In this document: piece after piece, positions 16,780 to 50,446 of the stretch | How positions within the stretch are numbered: the first letter of the stretch is position 1 | Layout of the letters: each line of letters opens with the position of its first letter | NCBI GenBank assembly: GCA_030680175.1 | Contig: JAUXWO010000113.1 | Location: forward strand, 1 to 64,000 | Length of the DNA stretch: 64,000 bases | Direction: 5' to 3' | Origin: Vicinamibacterales bacterium | Lineage (GTDB): Bacteria; Acidobacteriota; Vicinamibacteria; Vicinamibacterales; UBA2999 | Notes under the pieces: model-generated | Told to the model about the DNA's origin: nothing | Database searches by the model: none | What the model saw: only the letters and a program-made list of their open reading frames with translations | Made by a program: the position numbers and the translations under genes

Positions 16780-16860
16780 TCGGCTGTCAGCTGTCAGCTG
16801 TCAGCTGTCAGCTATCGGCTCCCGGCAATCTGCACTCTGCAATCTACAATCTGCAATTCT
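16780..16860. repeat. Heptanucleotide repeats (GCTGTCA/GCTATCG type) followed by a TGCAATC-type short repeat
   Basis: ggctgtcagctgtcagctgtcagctgtcagctatcgg ... gcaatctgcactctgcaatctacaatctgcaatt. Confidence 0.85.
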
Positions 16861-19481: not shown

Positions 19482-19684
19482 CGGCTATCGGCGATCAGCT
19501 ATCGGCTATCGGCTATCGGCTCTCAGCTGTCGGCTATCAGCTATCGGCGGTCAGCGATCAGCGATCGGCTCTCGGCTCTCGGCTATCAGCTATCGGCTAC
19601 GGGCCAGCGGCGCGCGGAACCGGAACGCTCCATCGCGCCCGGCACCCTCGAGCTGAGAGCTGAAAGCCGACAGCTGACAGCCTA
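19482..19684. repeat. Heptanucleotide (GGCTATC/AGCTATC) repeat array with partial reverse-complement arm
   Basis: About 120 nt of ggctatcggcgatcagctatcggctatc...; complementary agctgagagctgaaagccgacagctgacagc at about 19649-19680. Confidence 0.88.
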
Positions 19685-39212: not shown

Positions 39213-39305
39213 GCAGGGCTATCGGCTATCAGCGATCGGCTTTCGGCTATCAGCTTTCGGCTCTCGGCACCTTGGGCACCCTGGGCACCGCGGGCACCCT
39301 GGGCA
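39213..39305. repeat. Heptanucleotide (GGCTATC) array followed by 9-nt (CACCCTGGG) tandem repeat
   Basis: gctatcggctatcagcgatcggctttcggctatcagctttcggctctcgg + caccttgggcaccctgggcaccgcgggcaccctgggcac. Confidence 0.88.
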
Positions 39306-41821: not shown

Positions 41822-42526
41822 ATGGGAATCAAGGAACGCCAGGATCGCGACCGGCAGGCCGTGCGCGACTCCATCCTGGACGCCGCACGCGAGCTCTTCC
41901 TCGCCGACGGCTATCGCCACGTCTCGATCCGCAAGATCGCCGAGCGCATCGAATACAGCCCGGCCGCCCTCTACAGCTACTTCCCGAGCAAGGACGACAT
42001 CTTCTACGCCCTCGCCGAGGAAGGCTTCCGCCGCCTCGACCAGCATGTGCGCGCCGCCGCCGGCCGCCCCGACCCGCTCGATGAGGTGCGCGCCTGCTGG
42101 TGGGCCTACTACCGGTTCTCCAAGGAGCATCGCGAGTTCTTCGAGCTGATGTTCGTGGACCGCTCGGTGCCGCAGATCACCGAGCAGTGGACCGGCCTCG
42201 CCTTCGTCCACCAGATGCTGCAGCACGCCTCGTCGCGCATCCAGCGCTGCATCGACGACGGGATCTTCCCGTCCGGGACCAACGCCGAAGTCGTCATGCA
42301 CGTGCTCTGGGCCGCGCTCACGGGCCCGGCCGTGATCGGCAGCGGCTGCCGCCTGGCACCCGGAGAAGACCCGGATGCCCTCGCGCGCGATGTCCTCGAG
42401 GTCACGCTCGCGGGCGTGCGCGCCGGCGTGGCCACGACCTTTGCCCCGTGTACCCCTCCCGCGCCTCTCTCGCCTGTCGCCCCGGTTTCCGAAGCCTCCG
42501 CTGGAGTTCGACGTCATGATGCGTAA
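41822..42526 (+). CDS. TetR/AcrR family transcriptional regulator
   Basis: RDSILDAARELFLADGYRHVSIRKIAERIEYSPAALYSYFPSKDDIFYAL HTH. Confidence 0.95.
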   Translation: MGIKERQDRDRQAVRDSILDAARELFLADGYRHVSIRKIAERIEYSPAALYSYFPSKDDIFYALAEEGFRRLDQHVRAAAGRPDPLDEVRACWWAYYRFSKEHREFFELMFVDRSVPQITEQWTGLAFVHQMLQHASSRIQRCIDDGIFPSGTNAEVVMHVLWAALTGPAVIGSGCRLAPGEDPDALARDVLEVTLAGVRAGVATTFAPCTPPAPLSPVAPVSEASAGVRRHDA

Positions 42527-43652
42527 GCTCGTCCTCGTCCCCACCCTCGTCCTCGCCACCGCGCTCGTTGCAGCCGGCTGCCGCAGCGAGACCCCGACCG
42601 CGGCCGCCGAACCGGACGGCCCGGCACCGGCGCTCGACGTCGCCGCCGTGCGCGCCACGCCGGGCACCATCGAAGCGGCCATTGAACTGTCGGGCACGCT
42701 CGCCCCGCGCGCCCGCGTCGGCGTGAAGCCGCGCATGCCCGGCACGCTCGACTCGGTCCTGGTCGACCTCGGTGATCACGTGCGCCTCGGCCAGGTCATC
42801 GCCACGATCGACCGGCGCCAGATCGACGCGGAGGTCGATGCCGCCGGCGCCAGCGTGCAGGTCGCGCAGGCGGGCCTCGCCAGCGCCGAGGCCGCGCTGG
42901 CCAACGCCGAAACCGAACAGGCACGCGCCTCGTCGCTGTTCGAGAGCGGCGCGCTCCCCCGCCAGCGCCTCGAGACCGCCGACACCGGACTGCGCGCCGC
43001 CGTGGCCCAGCGCGATCTCGCGCGCGCGTCGGTCGCACAGGCCGAGGCCGCCGCGCGGCGCGCCCGCGAGATGCAGAAGAACGCGACCCTCACGTCCCCG
43101 GTGGCCGGCCACATCGTCGCCCGCCACTACGATGCGGGCGCCATGCCAGGCGATCTGCCCGTCGTCGTCGTCGCGGACATGCGCGAGATGAAGCTCGAGG
43201 TCGGCGTCTCCGAGCTCGAGGCCGGACGGCTCCGCCTGGGGCTGCCTGCCGTCGTCACCGTTCAGGCGCGGCCCGGCGAGACGTTCACCGGACGCCTGGC
43301 CGCCATCGCGCCCGAAGTGGACGAGCGCAACCGCCACTTCCGGATCGAAGTGCGTGTCGACAACCCCGACCAGACGCTCCTGTCCGGGATGTACGCCACG
43401 GTGCGCGTCGTGCTCGACACGGCCCACGAGGTCCTGACGCTCCCCCGCGAGGCCGTCGCCACGCGCGAGGGGCAGTCCGTCGCCATGCGAATCACCGGCA
43501 GCGACGTCGCACCGACGCCCGTCGAAACCGGCCTTGCCGACGGACGCCGCGTGCAGATTCTCTCGGGCCTTGCCGCCGGAGATGTGGTGCTCGCCGATGC
43601 GCGCCGCCAGCTTCCCGCCGGCGCCCGTGTGAACCCCATCGTCACGCCGTAA
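42516..43652 (+). CDS. Efflux RND transporter periplasmic adaptor subunit
   Basis: Lipobox LVAAGC; biotinyl-lipoyl-like GVKPRMPGTLDSVLVDLGDHVRLGQVIATID; coiled-coil hairpin. Confidence 0.94.
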   Translation: MMRKLVLVPTLVLATALVAAGCRSETPTAAAEPDGPAPALDVAAVRATPGTIEAAIELSGTLAPRARVGVKPRMPGTLDSVLVDLGDHVRLGQVIATIDRRQIDAEVDAAGASVQVAQAGLASAEAALANAETEQARASSLFESGALPRQRLETADTGLRAAVAQRDLARASVAQAEAAARRAREMQKNATLTSPVAGHIVARHYDAGAMPGDLPVVVVADMREMKLEVGVSELEAGRLRLGLPAVVTVQARPGETFTGRLAAIAPEVDERNRHFRIEVRVDNPDQTLLSGMYATVRVVLDTAHEVLTLPREAVATREGQSVAMRITGSDVAPTPVETGLADGRRVQILSGLAAGDVVLADARRQLPAGARVNPIVTP

Positions 43653-43654
43653 GT

Positions 43655-43794
43655 GCGCCGTTCGCTCTTCGCCGTTCGCTCTTCGCCCTTCGCGATTCGC
43701 TCTTCGCTGAGACGGCCGAGCTGAGCGAGACGGGCGACGAGAGACTGGCGAATAGCAACAGCGAATAGCGAATAGCGAACAGCGAATAGCGATC
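43655..43794. repeat. TTCGCTA/GCGAATA heptanucleotide repeat hairpin between adaptor and RND genes
   Basis: cgttcgctcttcgccgttcgctcttcgcccttcgcgattcgctcttcgc ... ggcgaatagcaacagcgaatagcgaatagcgaacagcgaatagcga. Confidence 0.88.
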
Positions 43795-46700
43795 ATGTGG
43801 ATTTCCAACACCTCCATTCAGCGCCCGGTCTTCGCGACGATGGTCATCATGAGCTTCATGGTGCTCGGCATCGTCTCGATGGGACGCCTGGGCATCGACC
43901 TGTTCCCCGAGGTCAACTTCCCGTTCGTCAACGTCACCGTCGTCTACCCGGGCGCGGCGCCTGAAGAGGTCGAGACGCTGGTGACGCGGCCGATCGAGGA
44001 CGCGGTCGCCGGCATTGCCGGGGTGAAGCGCGTGATCTCGACGTCGACCGAAGGCGTCTCGCGCGTCGGGATCGAACTGCGCCTCGAGGTGGACGCGCAG
44101 GCGGCCACCGCCGAGGTGCGCGAGAAGGTGGCCGCCGTCCGCGGACGGCTCCCCCGCGAAATCGAGGATCCGACCATCGCGCGGTTCGACGTGGCGGCGC
44201 TGCCGATCATGATCTACGCCGTGGGCTCGACGCAGCCGTCGGACGTGACGCGGCGGCAGATCGAGGACGACCTGAAGCCGCTGATTGAGCAGATCGACGG
44301 CGTGGCGGCGATCGAGGTGAACGGCGGCCAGGTCCGCGAGATCCAGGTGGATCTCGACCCGCGCCGGCTCGAGGCCCTCCAACTCCCCCTGGCCACGGTG
44401 GCCCAGGCGCTGGCCGCCTCGAACCTCGACGTCCCCGGCGGCCAGGTCAAGCGCGACGGCCGCAGCATCGCGCTGCGGACGAAGGGCGAGTTCCAGTCGG
44501 TCGACGAGATCGAGTCCCTCATCCTGCGCTCGACGGGCGGGTCCCCCGTGCGGCTGCGCGACGTGGGCCGGGTCGTGGACGGCTTCGAGGATCAGACCTC
44601 GACGACGCGGCTCGACGGCGCGGACGCGGTGTCGTTTTCGGTGCGCAAGCAGTCGGGGTCGAACACGGCGGCCATCGCGGACAGCGTAGAGGCGGCCCTC
44701 CTGCGTTTGGCGCCGGACTTCCCGCAGCTCGACATCCGCCCCGTGCACAACGACGCGGACTTCATCAAGGAGAACGTCCGCGAGGTCCGCAACCACATCC
44801 TCTTCGGCGGCGTGATGGCGGTCCTCATCGTCTTCGTCTTCATGCGCGACTGGCGCTCGACGCTCATCACGTCGCTCGCCCTACCCACGTCGGTGGTAGC
44901 CACGTTCTTCTTCATGTACATCGCGGGCTTCACCTTCAACATGATGACGTTGATGGCGCTCTCGCTCGTCATCGGCATCCTGATTGACGATGCGGTGGTG
45001 GTGCGGGAGAACATCTACCGCCACATGGAGATGGGCAAGGACCCGGTGACGGCCGCGCGGGACGGCACATCGGAGATCGGCCTCGCCGTGATGGCCACGA
45101 CCTTCACCATCCTCGCGGTGTTCCTCCCCGTCGGATTCATGACGGGGATCGTCGGCCAGTTCTTCAAGTCGTTCGCGCTGACGATCGCCTTCGCCGTCGC
45201 GATGTCGCTGCTCGTGGCGTTCACGCTCGACCCGATGCTGTCGTCGCGCTTCGTCCGGTTCATCCCGCACGAGGAGCGGATCCGGACGCGCACGGGCCGG
45301 ATGCTCGAGCGCTGGGGCGATTTCTACGACGGGATCGACCGCAAGTACCACGCCGTGCTGGGGTGGGCGCTCGCCCGCCCGTGGACGATCCTCGGCGTCG
45401 CCACGGCCGTGTTCCTCTCGAGCCTCTCCACGCTCGCGATCATGGGCACCGAGTTCACGCCCGCCGAGGATCGCGGCCAGTACGAAGTGCTGGTCGAGAT
45501 GCCGCCCGGCACGTCGTTCGAGCAGAGCGTGACGCAGATGGCGGAAGTCGAGCGGCAGATCCAGGGCATTCCCGAAGTCCGGCAGCTCTTCTCGACCGTC
45601 GGCGTCAACGGCGACCCGCTGCAGGGCCGCGTCCAGGTCAAGACCATCCACAAGCTCGAGCGCGAGCGCGGGCTGCTCGCGATCAAGGACGACACGCGGA
45701 AGCGGCTGGCCACGCTGCCGCTCGTGAAGACCACGGTGGCGGATCCGGAGTTCATGCAGGGCGCGCCGAACGAGGCCCCGATCAACGTATTCGTCCGCGG
45801 GAGCGACATGGACACGCTCCAGCGGCTCAGCGACGAGATCGTGACCAAGGTGCAGCGTATCCCCGGCACGGTCGACGTGAACAGCTCGCTCGAGAGCGGC
45901 CAGCCCGAGATGGTGGCGCGCGTCAACCGCGCCCTGGCGGCGGACCTCGGCTTCGACGTCGGCACCATCGCGCTGCAGCTGCGCAGCATGGTCGAAGGCG
46001 TCGTGCCGACGAAGCTCCGCGAGGGGGACAAGGAGTACGACATCCGCGTGCGGCTCGCGCCCGAGTTCCGGAACGACTTCGATGTCCTCGCGCGCGCGCC
46101 GCTCTACTCGCCGACCGGCGCGCTGGTGCGCACCAGCGAGGTGGTCACCCTCGAGCCCGACCTCGGGCCGACCAACATCGAGCGCGAGGGGCGCCGCCGG
46201 CAGGCCAAGATCGGGATCGAGCTGGACGGGCGGCCGCTCGGCGACGTCACGAACGACGTGGCCGCGGTGATGGCCACCATCGACATGCCCCCCAACGTGG
46301 AGTGGGGCTTCGCCGGCGATGTCGAGCTGATGCAGGAGTCGGCGGCGGCGATGGGTTTGGCGATCATCCTCGCGATCGCGTTCATCTACATCGTGCTGGC
46401 GTCGCAGTTCGAGTCGTTCACCGAGCCGTTCATCATCATGCTCGCCCTGCCGCTCGCCGTCGTCGGGGCGCTGCTCGGGCTCCTCCTGACGGGCAACAAC
46501 CTCGGCATGCCGGCCATGATCGGCATCGTCATGCTCATGGGGCTGGTGACGAAGAACGCCATCCTGCTCGTGGACATGACGAACCAGTACGTCCGCGAGG
46601 GGCACTCCGTCCCGGAGGCGCTGCTGCGCGCCGGTCCGGTCCGGCTGCGGCCCATCCTGATGACGACGATGGCGATGATCCTCGGCATGCTGCCTTCGGC

Positions 46701-48276
46701 CATGGGCCGGGGCGATGGGTCCGAGTTCCGCTCGCCGATCTCGATCGCCACCATCGGCGGGCTGATCACCTCCACGCTGCTCACGCTGGTCGTGATCCCC
46801 GTGTCGTACCTGCTGCTGTCGCGCTTCCTGGCGCGCCTCAAGGCGTGGCGCGCGTCGCCGGATGCGCGGCTGCACCCCGCCGTCCGCATCGCGGGGCTGC
46901 TGATCCTCGTCGGTCTCGTGGGCTGGTTCGCGACGGCCGCCTCGGCGTTCGGGCAGACGGTGGCCCCCTCGTCGCTCACGCGGGGGGCCGCTCCGGGCCT
47001 CGCGGCCCTCGGGGCCGCCGGCCAGGACGCGCCCCTGGTGCTGACGTTCGACGATGCGCTGGCACGTGCGATGACGAGCAACCAGGCCCTCAAGGTCACC
47101 GAGGAGGAGGTGCGCGTCGGACAGGCGCGGGTCTCCGAGGCGCGCACGGCCTTCCTGCCGAGCGTGGACCTCACCTTCCTGTACACCCCGACGCAGCGCT
47201 TTCCGTTGATCCAGATTCCCGCGGGCGTCTTCGGTCCGGAGCCGCAGACGTTCGAGGCGGGGTTCACCCGCGAGCACCTGATGCAGCTGGACGTCAGCCA
47301 GCCCCTCTACACGGGCGGGCGGATCGCCAGCGCGTACGGCATCCAGGCGGCGGCGTTCGACGCCTCACGGCTGGGGCTGGCGCGCACGCGGCAGGCGCTC
47401 CACCTGCAGGTGGTGCAGACCTTCTACGCCGTGCTGATGCACGAACAGGGACAACGGGTCGCGGCGGAGGCGATCACGCTTGCCGAACGCCAGCTCGAGC
47501 TCGCGCGGGTCCGCTTCGACGCGGGCTCCGTCGCGCGGCTCGACGTGCTCCGGGCGGAGGTGGACCTGGCCAACGCGCGCGCGCGGCGGATCCAGGCCCG
47601 CGCCGCGGTCGAGACCGCGCATCAGGCCCTCCGTTCGCTGCTGGCGCTGCCGCAGTCGCAGCCGATCCAGTTGAGCGGCACCCTCGACGAGCCTCTGGCG
47701 CCCTTGACCCGCGAGGCGCTCACCGCGGCATTGCCGGCCCGCCCCGACCTCCGCGCCTTCGGGGCGCAGCGCGAGATGGCCGACCACGCCGTCTCGCTGG
47801 CCAACGCGCAGTGGAAGCCCAGCCTGGCACTGACGGGGAACCTCATGTATCAGGATGACGGCCTGTCGAACCTCTGGACGTCGAACAACCAGAGCTACAC
47901 GCTCGGCGTGGCCCTCCGCGTGCCGCTCTTCGCGGCCCCCAGAGCCGCGGCGCAGCGGACGGTGGCGCTGGCCCAGCGGCGTCAGGCCGGCCACGGCCTC
48001 GAGGCCGCGCTCGACGCCGGGCACCTGGAGATCGCCTCGGCGTGGACCGATCTGGAGGCGCTGGCCGAAGTGGTCGTGATGCAGGAGAAGGCGCTGGAGC
48101 TGGCGCGCGAGAGCGTCTCGATTGCGCAGGTCTCCTACGAGAACGGCGTCATCACGTCGGCGGAGCTCACCGACGCCCAGGTCGCGCTCCTCCAGACCGA
48201 GTCGCTCCTCATGCAGGCCAAGTACCACCGCATCGTCGCCGCGGCCCGCGCGCGCTTTGCGGCCGGCATTGAGTAA
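43795..48276 (+). CDS. RND efflux permease fused to TolC-like outer membrane factor (1493 aa)
   Basis: aa 1-~1015 AcrB/HAE-type (MWISNTSIQRPVFATMVI..., GILIDDAVVVRENIYRHM, LVTKNAILLVDMTN); joint AVRIAGLLILVGLVGWFATAASAFGQ; then TolC repeats (LTFDDALARAMTSNQALKVTEEEVRVGQARVSEARTAFLPSVDL...). Confidence 0.93.
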   Translation: MWISNTSIQRPVFATMVIMSFMVLGIVSMGRLGIDLFPEVNFPFVNVTVVYPGAAPEEVETLVTRPIEDAVAGIAGVKRVISTSTEGVSRVGIELRLEVDAQAATAEVREKVAAVRGRLPREIEDPTIARFDVAALPIMIYAVGSTQPSDVTRRQIEDDLKPLIEQIDGVAAIEVNGGQVREIQVDLDPRRLEALQLPLATVAQALAASNLDVPGGQVKRDGRSIALRTKGEFQSVDEIESLILRSTGGSPVRLRDVGRVVDGFEDQTSTTRLDGADAVSFSVRKQSGSNTAAIADSVEAALLRLAPDFPQLDIRPVHNDADFIKENVREVRNHILFGGVMAVLIVFVFMRDWRSTLITSLALPTSVVATFFFMYIAGFTFNMMTLMALSLVIGILIDDAVVVRENIYRHMEMGKDPVTAARDGTSEIGLAVMATTFTILAVFLPVGFMTGIVGQFFKSFALTIAFAVAMSLLVAFTLDPMLSSRFVRFIPHEERIRTRTGRMLERWGDFYDGIDRKYHAVLGWALARPWTILGVATAVFLSSLSTLAIMGTEFTPAEDRGQYEVLVEMPPGTSFEQSVTQMAEVERQIQGIPEVRQLFSTVGVNGDPLQGRVQVKTIHKLERERGLLAIKDDTRKRLATLPLVKTTVADPEFMQGAPNEAPINVFVRGSDMDTLQRLSDEIVTKVQRIPGTVDVNSSLESGQPEMVARVNRALAADLGFDVGTIALQLRSMVEGVVPTKLREGDKEYDIRVRLAPEFRNDFDVLARAPLYSPTGALVRTSEVVTLEPDLGPTNIEREGRRRQAKIGIELDGRPLGDVTNDVAAVMATIDMPPNVEWGFAGDVELMQESAAAMGLAIILAIAFIYIVLASQFESFTEPFIIMLALPLAVVGALLGLLLTGNNLGMPAMIGIVMLMGLVTKNAILLVDMTNQYVREGHSVPEALLRAGPVRLRPILMTTMAMILGMLPSAMGRGDGSEFRSPISIATIGGLITSTLLTLVVIPVSYLLLSRFLARLKAWRASPDARLHPAVRIAGLLILVGLVGWFATAASAFGQTVAPSSLTRGAAPGLAALGAAGQDAPLVLTFDDALARAMTSNQALKVTEEEVRVGQARVSEARTAFLPSVDLTFLYTPTQRFPLIQIPAGVFGPEPQTFEAGFTREHLMQLDVSQPLYTGGRIASAYGIQAAAFDASRLGLARTRQALHLQVVQTFYAVLMHEQGQRVAAEAITLAERQLELARVRFDAGSVARLDVLRAEVDLANARARRIQARAAVETAHQALRSLLALPQSQPIQLSGTLDEPLAPLTREALTAALPARPDLRAFGAQREMADHAVSLANAQWKPSLALTGNLMYQDDGLSNLWTSNNQSYTLGVALRVPLFAAPRAAAQRTVALAQRRQAGHGLEAALDAGHLEIASAWTDLEALAEVVVMQEKALELARESVSIAQVSYENGVITSAELTDAQVALLQTESLLMQAKYHRIVAAARARFAAGIE

Positions 48277-49437: not shown

Positions 49438-49540
49438 GGTTCGCTGTTCGCTGTCGCAATTCGCTGTTCGTAATTCGCTCTTCGCTGTTCGCAGAGTGCA
49501 AGACGCCAGAAGCCGAGCGCTGGACGCCGAGAGCCGAGAG
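49438..49540. repeat. TTCGCTG/TTCGTAA heptanucleotide repeat
   Basis: ggttcgctgttcgctgtcgcaattcgctgttcgtaattcgctcttcgctgttcgcagag. Confidence 0.85.
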
Positions 49541-50401: not shown

Positions 50402-50446
50402 GGAGGGTCCTTCGCTATTCGCTATTCGCCAATTCGCTGTTCGCAG
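50402..50446. repeat. TTCGCTA heptanucleotide repeat (short)
   Basis: ccttcgctattcgctattcgccaattcgctgttcgc. Confidence 0.85.

Follow-up and report, generated by a model that had tools for sequence, protein, structure and literature searches.

The locus analysed here raises the question of how a single gene can supply both an inner-membrane pump and an outer-membrane channel. The standard account of tripartite efflux pumps has three distinct proteins, and several pumps often use a common outer-membrane channel; in this case, a single gene product comprises pump and channel. The window, a stretch of 64,000 nucleotides from a Vicinamibacterales bacterium (contig JAUXWO010000113.1 of assembly GCA_030680175.1), carries the gene on its forward strand (Table 1). 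An earlier note on this DNA had proposed a fusion of an RND permease with a TolC-like outer-membrane factor (OMF) in one frame, and the ORF listing and translation bear this out: the 1493 codons run from an ATG start with zero internal stops, and Pfam detects both ACR_tran and OEP within them. ACR_tran covers the RND domain over its full length (E = 6.9e-266, profile positions 1-1020 of 1021), and OEP is matched in two stretches, the best of which lies at aa 1085-1283 with E = 2e-54. Profile matches relate the C-terminal part to TolC, OprM, and CusC, with an alignment that begins at TolC residue 4. An AlphaFold model of this part (pLDDT 90.6, pTM 0.81) retrieved the CusC, TolC, and OprM families in Foldseek at E-values of about 1e-20 to 1e-18, CusC itself at 1e-20. 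As modeled, the OMF part is a full TolC-type factor with a CusC/TolC/OprM fold.

The closest solved structure of the RND part is MdtB (9lyq, 5.5e-136). Against family profiles it scored 827.6 bits with RND_permease_2 and 485.5 bits with TIGR00914 (CusA), neither of which reaches the curated cut-off. Since the TIGR00914 cut-off is 701.45 bits, and since the RND part was placed apart from the CusA fusions in an RND tree, it falls outside the CusA/CzcA family. Residues resembling a proton relay were located by motif at D398, D399, K920, R950, and T957, and were matched by eye to D407, D408, K940, R971, and T978 of AcrB. Judged by profile scores and tree position, the RND part belongs to the HAE (multidrug) branch rather than to the heavy-metal CusA branch, as had been suspected, and drug export is its predicted activity.

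The genes run in the order TetR-family regulator, adaptor, fused RND-OMF gene, so that the adaptor does lie directly upstream of the fusion as previously claimed. Its start at 42516 is inferred, the mechanical ORF being 42375-43652. Besides the HlyD_D23 domain, the product matches NCBIfam RND_mfp above the cut-off, and reading from the inferred start gives the lipobox LVAAGC. Among the clade members examined besides the source genome, the spacer between the adaptor and the fused gene ranges from 5 to 60 bp.

Table 1. Features of the fused gene and its upstream neighbors in the window.
Feature	Position	Strand	Remarks
TetR-family regulator, 234 aa	41822..42526	+	Pfam TetR_N 3.2e-16, TetR_C_33 5.3e-07; overlaps adaptor start
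Periplasmic adaptor (MFP/PAP), probable lipoprotein (MMRKLVLVPTLVLATALVAAGC)	42516..43652	+	HlyD_D23 1.6e-23; RND_mfp 194.8 bits
Intergenic spacer; two arrays of 7-bp repeats, inverted relative to each other	43656..43792	.	Arrays 43656-43708 and 43748-43792, just upstream of fused gene
Fused RND permease and TolC-type outer-membrane factor	43795..48276	+	1493 aa, one frame; full length kept in relatives
RND permease domain, HAE type	43801..46818	+	aa 3-1008; ACR_tran; MdtB 9lyq is the closest solved structure
Basic cytoplasmic loop after TM12	46822..46887	+	aa 1010-1031; net charge +4 over the 20 residues that precede the hydrophobic run
Internal signal-peptide-like segment IAGLLILVGLVGWFATAASAFG	46888..46953	+	aa 1032-1053; in effect a 13th TM, N-in/C-out
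Predicted signal peptidase I site A1051-F1052-G1053↓Q1054	46945..46956	+	AFAQ/AYGQ/AWAQ in orthologues
Predicted mature outer-membrane factor	46954..48273	+	aa 1054-1493, 440 residues; OEP, profile matches, model

The joint between the two domains, whose residues agree with those quoted in the earlier note, had been likened to a signal peptide with an AxA-type site, and comparison with relatives upholds the likeness. Across the acidobacterial clade, the joint is laid out as a basic loop, about 22 apolar residues, and A-x-A/G↓Q; in the source protein, the residue at -1 of the predicted site is Gly, not Ala. An alternative cut, ASA↓F (A1051↓F1052), can also be read there. As a control we used TM1 of the same proteins, an uncleaved N-in/C-out helix. 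The motif A-x-[AG] occurs at the joint in 26/26 clade members and after TM1 in 2/26; among all 62 fused proteins compared, the counts are 53 and 7, and with Q, E, D, or S at +1 they are 45 and 1. All five fused groups have a hydrophobic joint preceded by a stretch that is mostly basic, and basic in nearly all fused homologues; several members of the other groups (e.g., L187, L190, L137, and L144) depart from the strict A-x-[AG] rule. In one Chitinophaga fusion (L147), the lipobox LSGC replaces the A-x-A site, as would be expected if the joints function as genuine signal peptides, whichever the class. Differences over the joint helix amount to 0.40, 0.21, and 0.52 at codon positions 1, 2, and 3, the pattern of a translated sequence. 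The source genome has signal peptidase I genes.

We propose, with a probability of about 0.78, that the gene encodes a polyprotein that is processed by signal peptidase to yield pump and channel 1:1, and we infer its topology, cleavage, assembly, and function as a pump as follows. The ribosome would make one chain of 1493 residues, the RND part of which would insert in the inner membrane with both ends cytoplasmic, as is the case in known RND pumps. Beyond TM12 and the basic cytoplasmic loop, a hydrophobic segment would engage the Sec machinery as a signal peptide does at the start of a separate protein, and would direct the C-terminal 440 residues into the periplasm. Signal peptidase I would cleave behind A-F-G, or A-F-A as most relatives have it; the pump would retain a 13th TM as a stub, and the freed TolC-like factor would travel to the outer membrane in the usual way. 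Mature pump and channel, made 1:1, would then join the adaptor encoded upstream as a normal tripartite pump. It is plausible that the fusion enforces the predicted pump:OMF stoichiometry; known tripartite pumps have a 3:6:3 stoichiometry (PMC4446572).

The apolar run of about 22 residues seen in the clade is long for a signal peptide and sufficient for a stable TM helix, so cleavage may be slow or partial. Timed cleavage, in which the uncut 160-kDa chain would be an assembly intermediate that brings a channel protomer to its own pump trimer (cognate 3:3) before the OMF is released, seems to us an unlikely elaboration. We consider it improbable that the OMF is instead translated separately from an internal start codon near the joint, in the same frame. 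GTG codons do occur in some joints, and related operons have a separate OMF start at the same spot; against this, a scan of 25 orthologues found no conserved internal start codon or Shine-Dalgarno sequence at the joint, and the candidate was rejected on this basis. The scanned joint of L010 holds no in-frame ATG, GTG, or TTG at all, and that of the source gene has one GTG only, inside the apolar run. Moreover, if the OMF were made only from an internal start, nothing would explain why every readable member keeps the frame open.

Cleavage in the linker by a periplasmic protease, rather than by signal peptidase I, is a quite improbable alternative. The linker that follows the predicted site is indeed long and of low complexity in the source protein and some relatives, but its length and sequence vary across the clade while A-x-[AG] is invariant there, and in some members it is very short, with 6 residues between the predicted site and the first conserved OMF motif in L018 and L021. 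These short linkers also bear on the choice posed by the earlier note, between a protein that spans both membranes and one that is cleaved, of which cleavage emerges as much the better supported. If the chain were never cut, the OMF would stay covalently tethered to the pump via TM13. The length of the hydrophobic run would allow this, as might the source protein's linker of roughly 29 residues from the site to the first OMF motif. However, the N-terminus of an OMF leaves the equatorial domain halfway up a helical barrel of 100 Å (PMC8277102). A linker of 6 residues would be too short to span from the inner membrane to that point, where, by analogy with known structures, the periplasmic domain of the RND part would also have to be passed. 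Together with the conserved A-x-A/G↓Q immediately after the apolar run and the lipobox at one joint, which is sensible only with cleavage, this makes a permanently uncut chain very unlikely.

Conservation of the fused frame in related genomes, a check suggested by the earlier note, was confirmed. The frame is open across the joint in all 26 clade genomes whose joint was readable (Acidobacteriota, 61-74% identity, many separate assemblies), and the full-length frame recurs in the family. For L016, L022, L023, L036, and L037, the reading frame was taken by tblastn, the longest ORF there being antisense or in another high-GC frame. Of the outcomes that the earlier note named as refuting the fusion, none was encountered, save that some distant homologues, though not close relatives, are split at the joint; L072, an OMF without RND, was discarded as a split case because its contig begins too close before the joint. 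An artefact, by which a missing stop or frameshift merged two genes, has a next to negligible chance: the source assembly is fragmented (143 contigs) and the frame breaks elsewhere in the gene, away from the joint, in two related assemblies (L071 and L076, probably assembly errors), but the same fusion and joint in 26/26 readable genomes from many projects, other RND-OMF fusions in Bacteroidota isolate genomes and plasmids, and the codon-position pattern at the joint rule it out.

Further RND-OMF fusions were found elsewhere in Acidobacteriota and in Bacteroidota isolates, the latter of both CusA and HAE type, and such fusions arose several times in bacteria. Environmental Bacteroidota that carry a native fusion include Pedobacter cryoconitis and Fibrella forsythiae. 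Where relatives have unfused genes in the order adaptor-RND-OMF, the OMF bears a signal peptide of its own at this place, and its gene overlaps the RND stop or begins shortly after it. On sequence grounds, the fused joint looks like the retained signal peptide of a formerly separate OMF, and the fusion probably originated in such an operon through loss of the RND stop codon or a frameshift where the two genes overlap, with the OMF signal peptide kept. The CusA-type fusions of Bacteroidota mentioned in the earlier note were recovered here and already stand in databases. As for novelty, the fusion is not unique to this gene: further cases, HAE-type pumps among them, exist in the same phylum and in Bacteroidota. 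The acidobacterial HAE branch and its recurrence appear to be undescribed. Our literature search returned no description of RND-OMF fusions, which is weak evidence of novelty given its thin coverage of subscription papers.

The arrangement is thus a recurrent one that keeps a signal peptide mid-chain. If processed as proposed, it would be a bacterial polyprotein serving two membranes, with fixed 1:1 synthesis of cognate parts, and it would offer a simple test system for signal peptidase action after twelve membrane spans, which is uncommon. Many proteins labelled simply 'RND transporter' include a channel of their own, and annotation should be read with this in mind.

Among known systems, AcrAB-TolC, MexAB-OprM, and MdtABC comprise the same three domain types, but as three or more separate polypeptides. 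The Bacteroidota proteins of about 1450 aa that carry the annotation 'CusA/CzcA family heavy metal efflux RND transporter' likewise have an RND part followed by a TolC-type OMF in one frame, and in most of them the hydrophobic joint ends in A-x-A↓Q. They differ in belonging to the heavy-metal branch, far off in the RND tree, and to another phylum, and the tree gives no hint of a common fusion event. The HAE-type fusions of Fibrella, Flavobacterium, and Chitinophaga (L145-L147) also join a drug-type RND to an OMF with an internal signal peptide, but they occupy separate places in the RND tree, and the joint of L147 is of the lipoprotein type. A parallel for the proposed maturation is Bradyrhizobium FbcH, a cytochrome b/c1 polyprotein in which an internal signal peptide comes after a multi-span membrane protein and is cleaved, yielding two proteins; in contrast to the RND-OMF fusion, it serves a respiratory complex and both of its products reside in one membrane.

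The gene at the centre of this analysis is a single frame of 1493 codons without interruption that encodes a complete RND permease (Pfam ACR_tran, aa 3-1008, 6.9e-266) together with an entire outer-membrane factor, OMF (OEP in two stretches, 2e-54). NCBIfam multidrug models gave the RND part 827.6 bits, more than the 485.5 of the CusA metal model yet less than any curated cut-off requires, indicating a divergent HAE-type pump; its closest solved structure is MdtB. A model of the OMF part, built from an alignment of 51 sequences (mean pLDDT 90.6, pTM 0.81), matched CusC, SilC, TolC and OprM.

An artefactual fusion was rejected, since the full-length frame recurs at 61-74% identity in other genomes of its family and order and the joint shows a coding pattern: orthologues differ over the joint helix by 0.40/0.21/0.52 at codon positions 1/2/3, indicating that it is translated in the fused frame. 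Partial copies in relatives mostly reflect contig ends within the gene; at three loci the frame breaks away from the joint or the contig begins at it. The clade consists mostly of MAGs labelled 'Acidobacteria bacterium', and a few members bear different labels, as often happens with MAGs. At one locus, L072, the contig's first 20 bases hold a stop ahead of the OMF frame and an in-frame ATG lies upstream of the joint, which points to a split gene or to an error at the contig edge.

After TM12, a basic loop leads into 22 uncharged residues (aa 1032-1053) closing with A1051-F1052-G1053↓Q1054, where the arrow marks the predicted cut; orthologues have AFA↓Q, AYG↓Q, AWA↓Q and similar. Both ends of RND pumps are cytoplasmic, and this known topology, together with the basic loop before TM13, would place the OMF in the periplasm. 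TM1 of these proteins served as a control, being uncleaved and, like the joint, oriented N-in/C-out. A-x-[AG] followed the hydrophobic core in 26/26 joints of the clade vs. 2/26 TM1 helices and, among 62 fused proteins from five groups, in 53 joints vs. 7 TM1 helices (45 vs. 1 when Q/E/D/S came next), figures that are counts rather than probabilities because related sequences are non-independent. No conserved start codon with Shine-Dalgarno spacing was found at the joint across orthologues.

It is most likely that one chain is synthesised, that the internal signal peptide sends the OMF part out, and that signal peptidase I, genes for which are present in the genome, cuts at the A-x-A/G site. 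Cleavage of one chain would yield pump and channel 1:1, which would then join the adaptor in one assembly. Alternatively, the chain could be left uncut with the OMF still attached to the pump. The OMF N-terminus lies in the equatorial domain, mid-way along a 100 Å periplasmic barrel (PMC8277102). However, in the fused proteins L018 and L021 the first conserved OMF motif, which aligns close to the mature TolC start, begins only six residues after the site. With the RND periplasmic domain also sitting below the barrel, the uncut alternative fails on length.

Relatives show three arrangements: split OMF-adaptor-RND (e.g., L047, L178-L180, L192, L194-L199), split adaptor-RND-OMF (L191, L193, L200-L202) and adaptor followed by the fusion. 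In the second, the OMF gene starts with a signal peptide and overlaps the RND stop or lies close behind; ATGA is common to stop and start in L193, and TGA separates the two in the same frame in L191. One bacterial family holds both L183 (fused) and L193 (split). On a tree of 74 RND domains, the window's clade forms a single group (support 100), and fused and split members intermix in two other groups. At least 10 fused/split changes were counted on this quick LG+G4 tree, which has long branches, chosen rows and uneven sampling and does not give direction. Even so, more than one event between the two states is clear from the sequences compared. A second acidobacterial fusion group (L037-L042, L185; about 1574-1605 aa, larger OMF) includes members from the window's bacterial family.

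The window's genome carries at least seven further RND genes, and those examined lack an OMF fusion. Two tandem repeat arrays in inverted orientation take up the spacer before the fused gene; L054 and L015 have different 7-bp repeats there, and most other relatives examined have a short spacer without them. In the window, TTCGCTATTCGCTATTCGC had 12 matches at ≤3 mismatches vs. none in shuffles.

Features of the fused-gene locus and repeat arrays in the window
Feature	Position	Remark
TetR-family regulator gene		upstream of fused gene; 3' end overlaps adaptor start
Adaptor gene	start 42516	upstream of fused gene; probable lipoprotein
Two 7-bp tandem arrays, TTCGCTA-like	43656-43708, 43748-43792	inverted orientation; adaptor/fused-gene spacer
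Fused RND·OMF gene	43795-48276 (+)	
Heptanucleotide arrays	16783-16857, 19482-19599, 39217-39268, 49439-49492, 50411-50444	
Recurring 9-bp array ACACGAAGG	3574, 48289, 58597	

Each of the six Bacteroidota genomes searched carried CusA-type RND-OMF fusions, which also occurred on closed plasmids of Bacteroidota isolates under the plain name 'CusA/CzcA family heavy metal efflux RND transporter'. HAE-type fusions were found in three Bacteroidota (L145-L147). Nearly all the fused pumps keep a signal-peptide-like joint. That of L147 (Chitinophaga rhizophila) closes with the lipobox LSGC, which suggests that the OMF is lipidated and processed by signal peptidase II. Differing from these, L184 (G332:C117:14000-21992) is a 1392-aa frame of RND then periplasmic adaptor, with a lipobox-like joint (LTVTGAAC) and a separate OMF upstream. 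The RND·OMF fusion per se is already in databases; no published description was found in the open-access literature, most subscription papers lying outside the search. Three features seem undescribed: the acidobacterial clade of HAE type, the repeated emergence of such fusions, and the shared design in which the signal peptide is kept.
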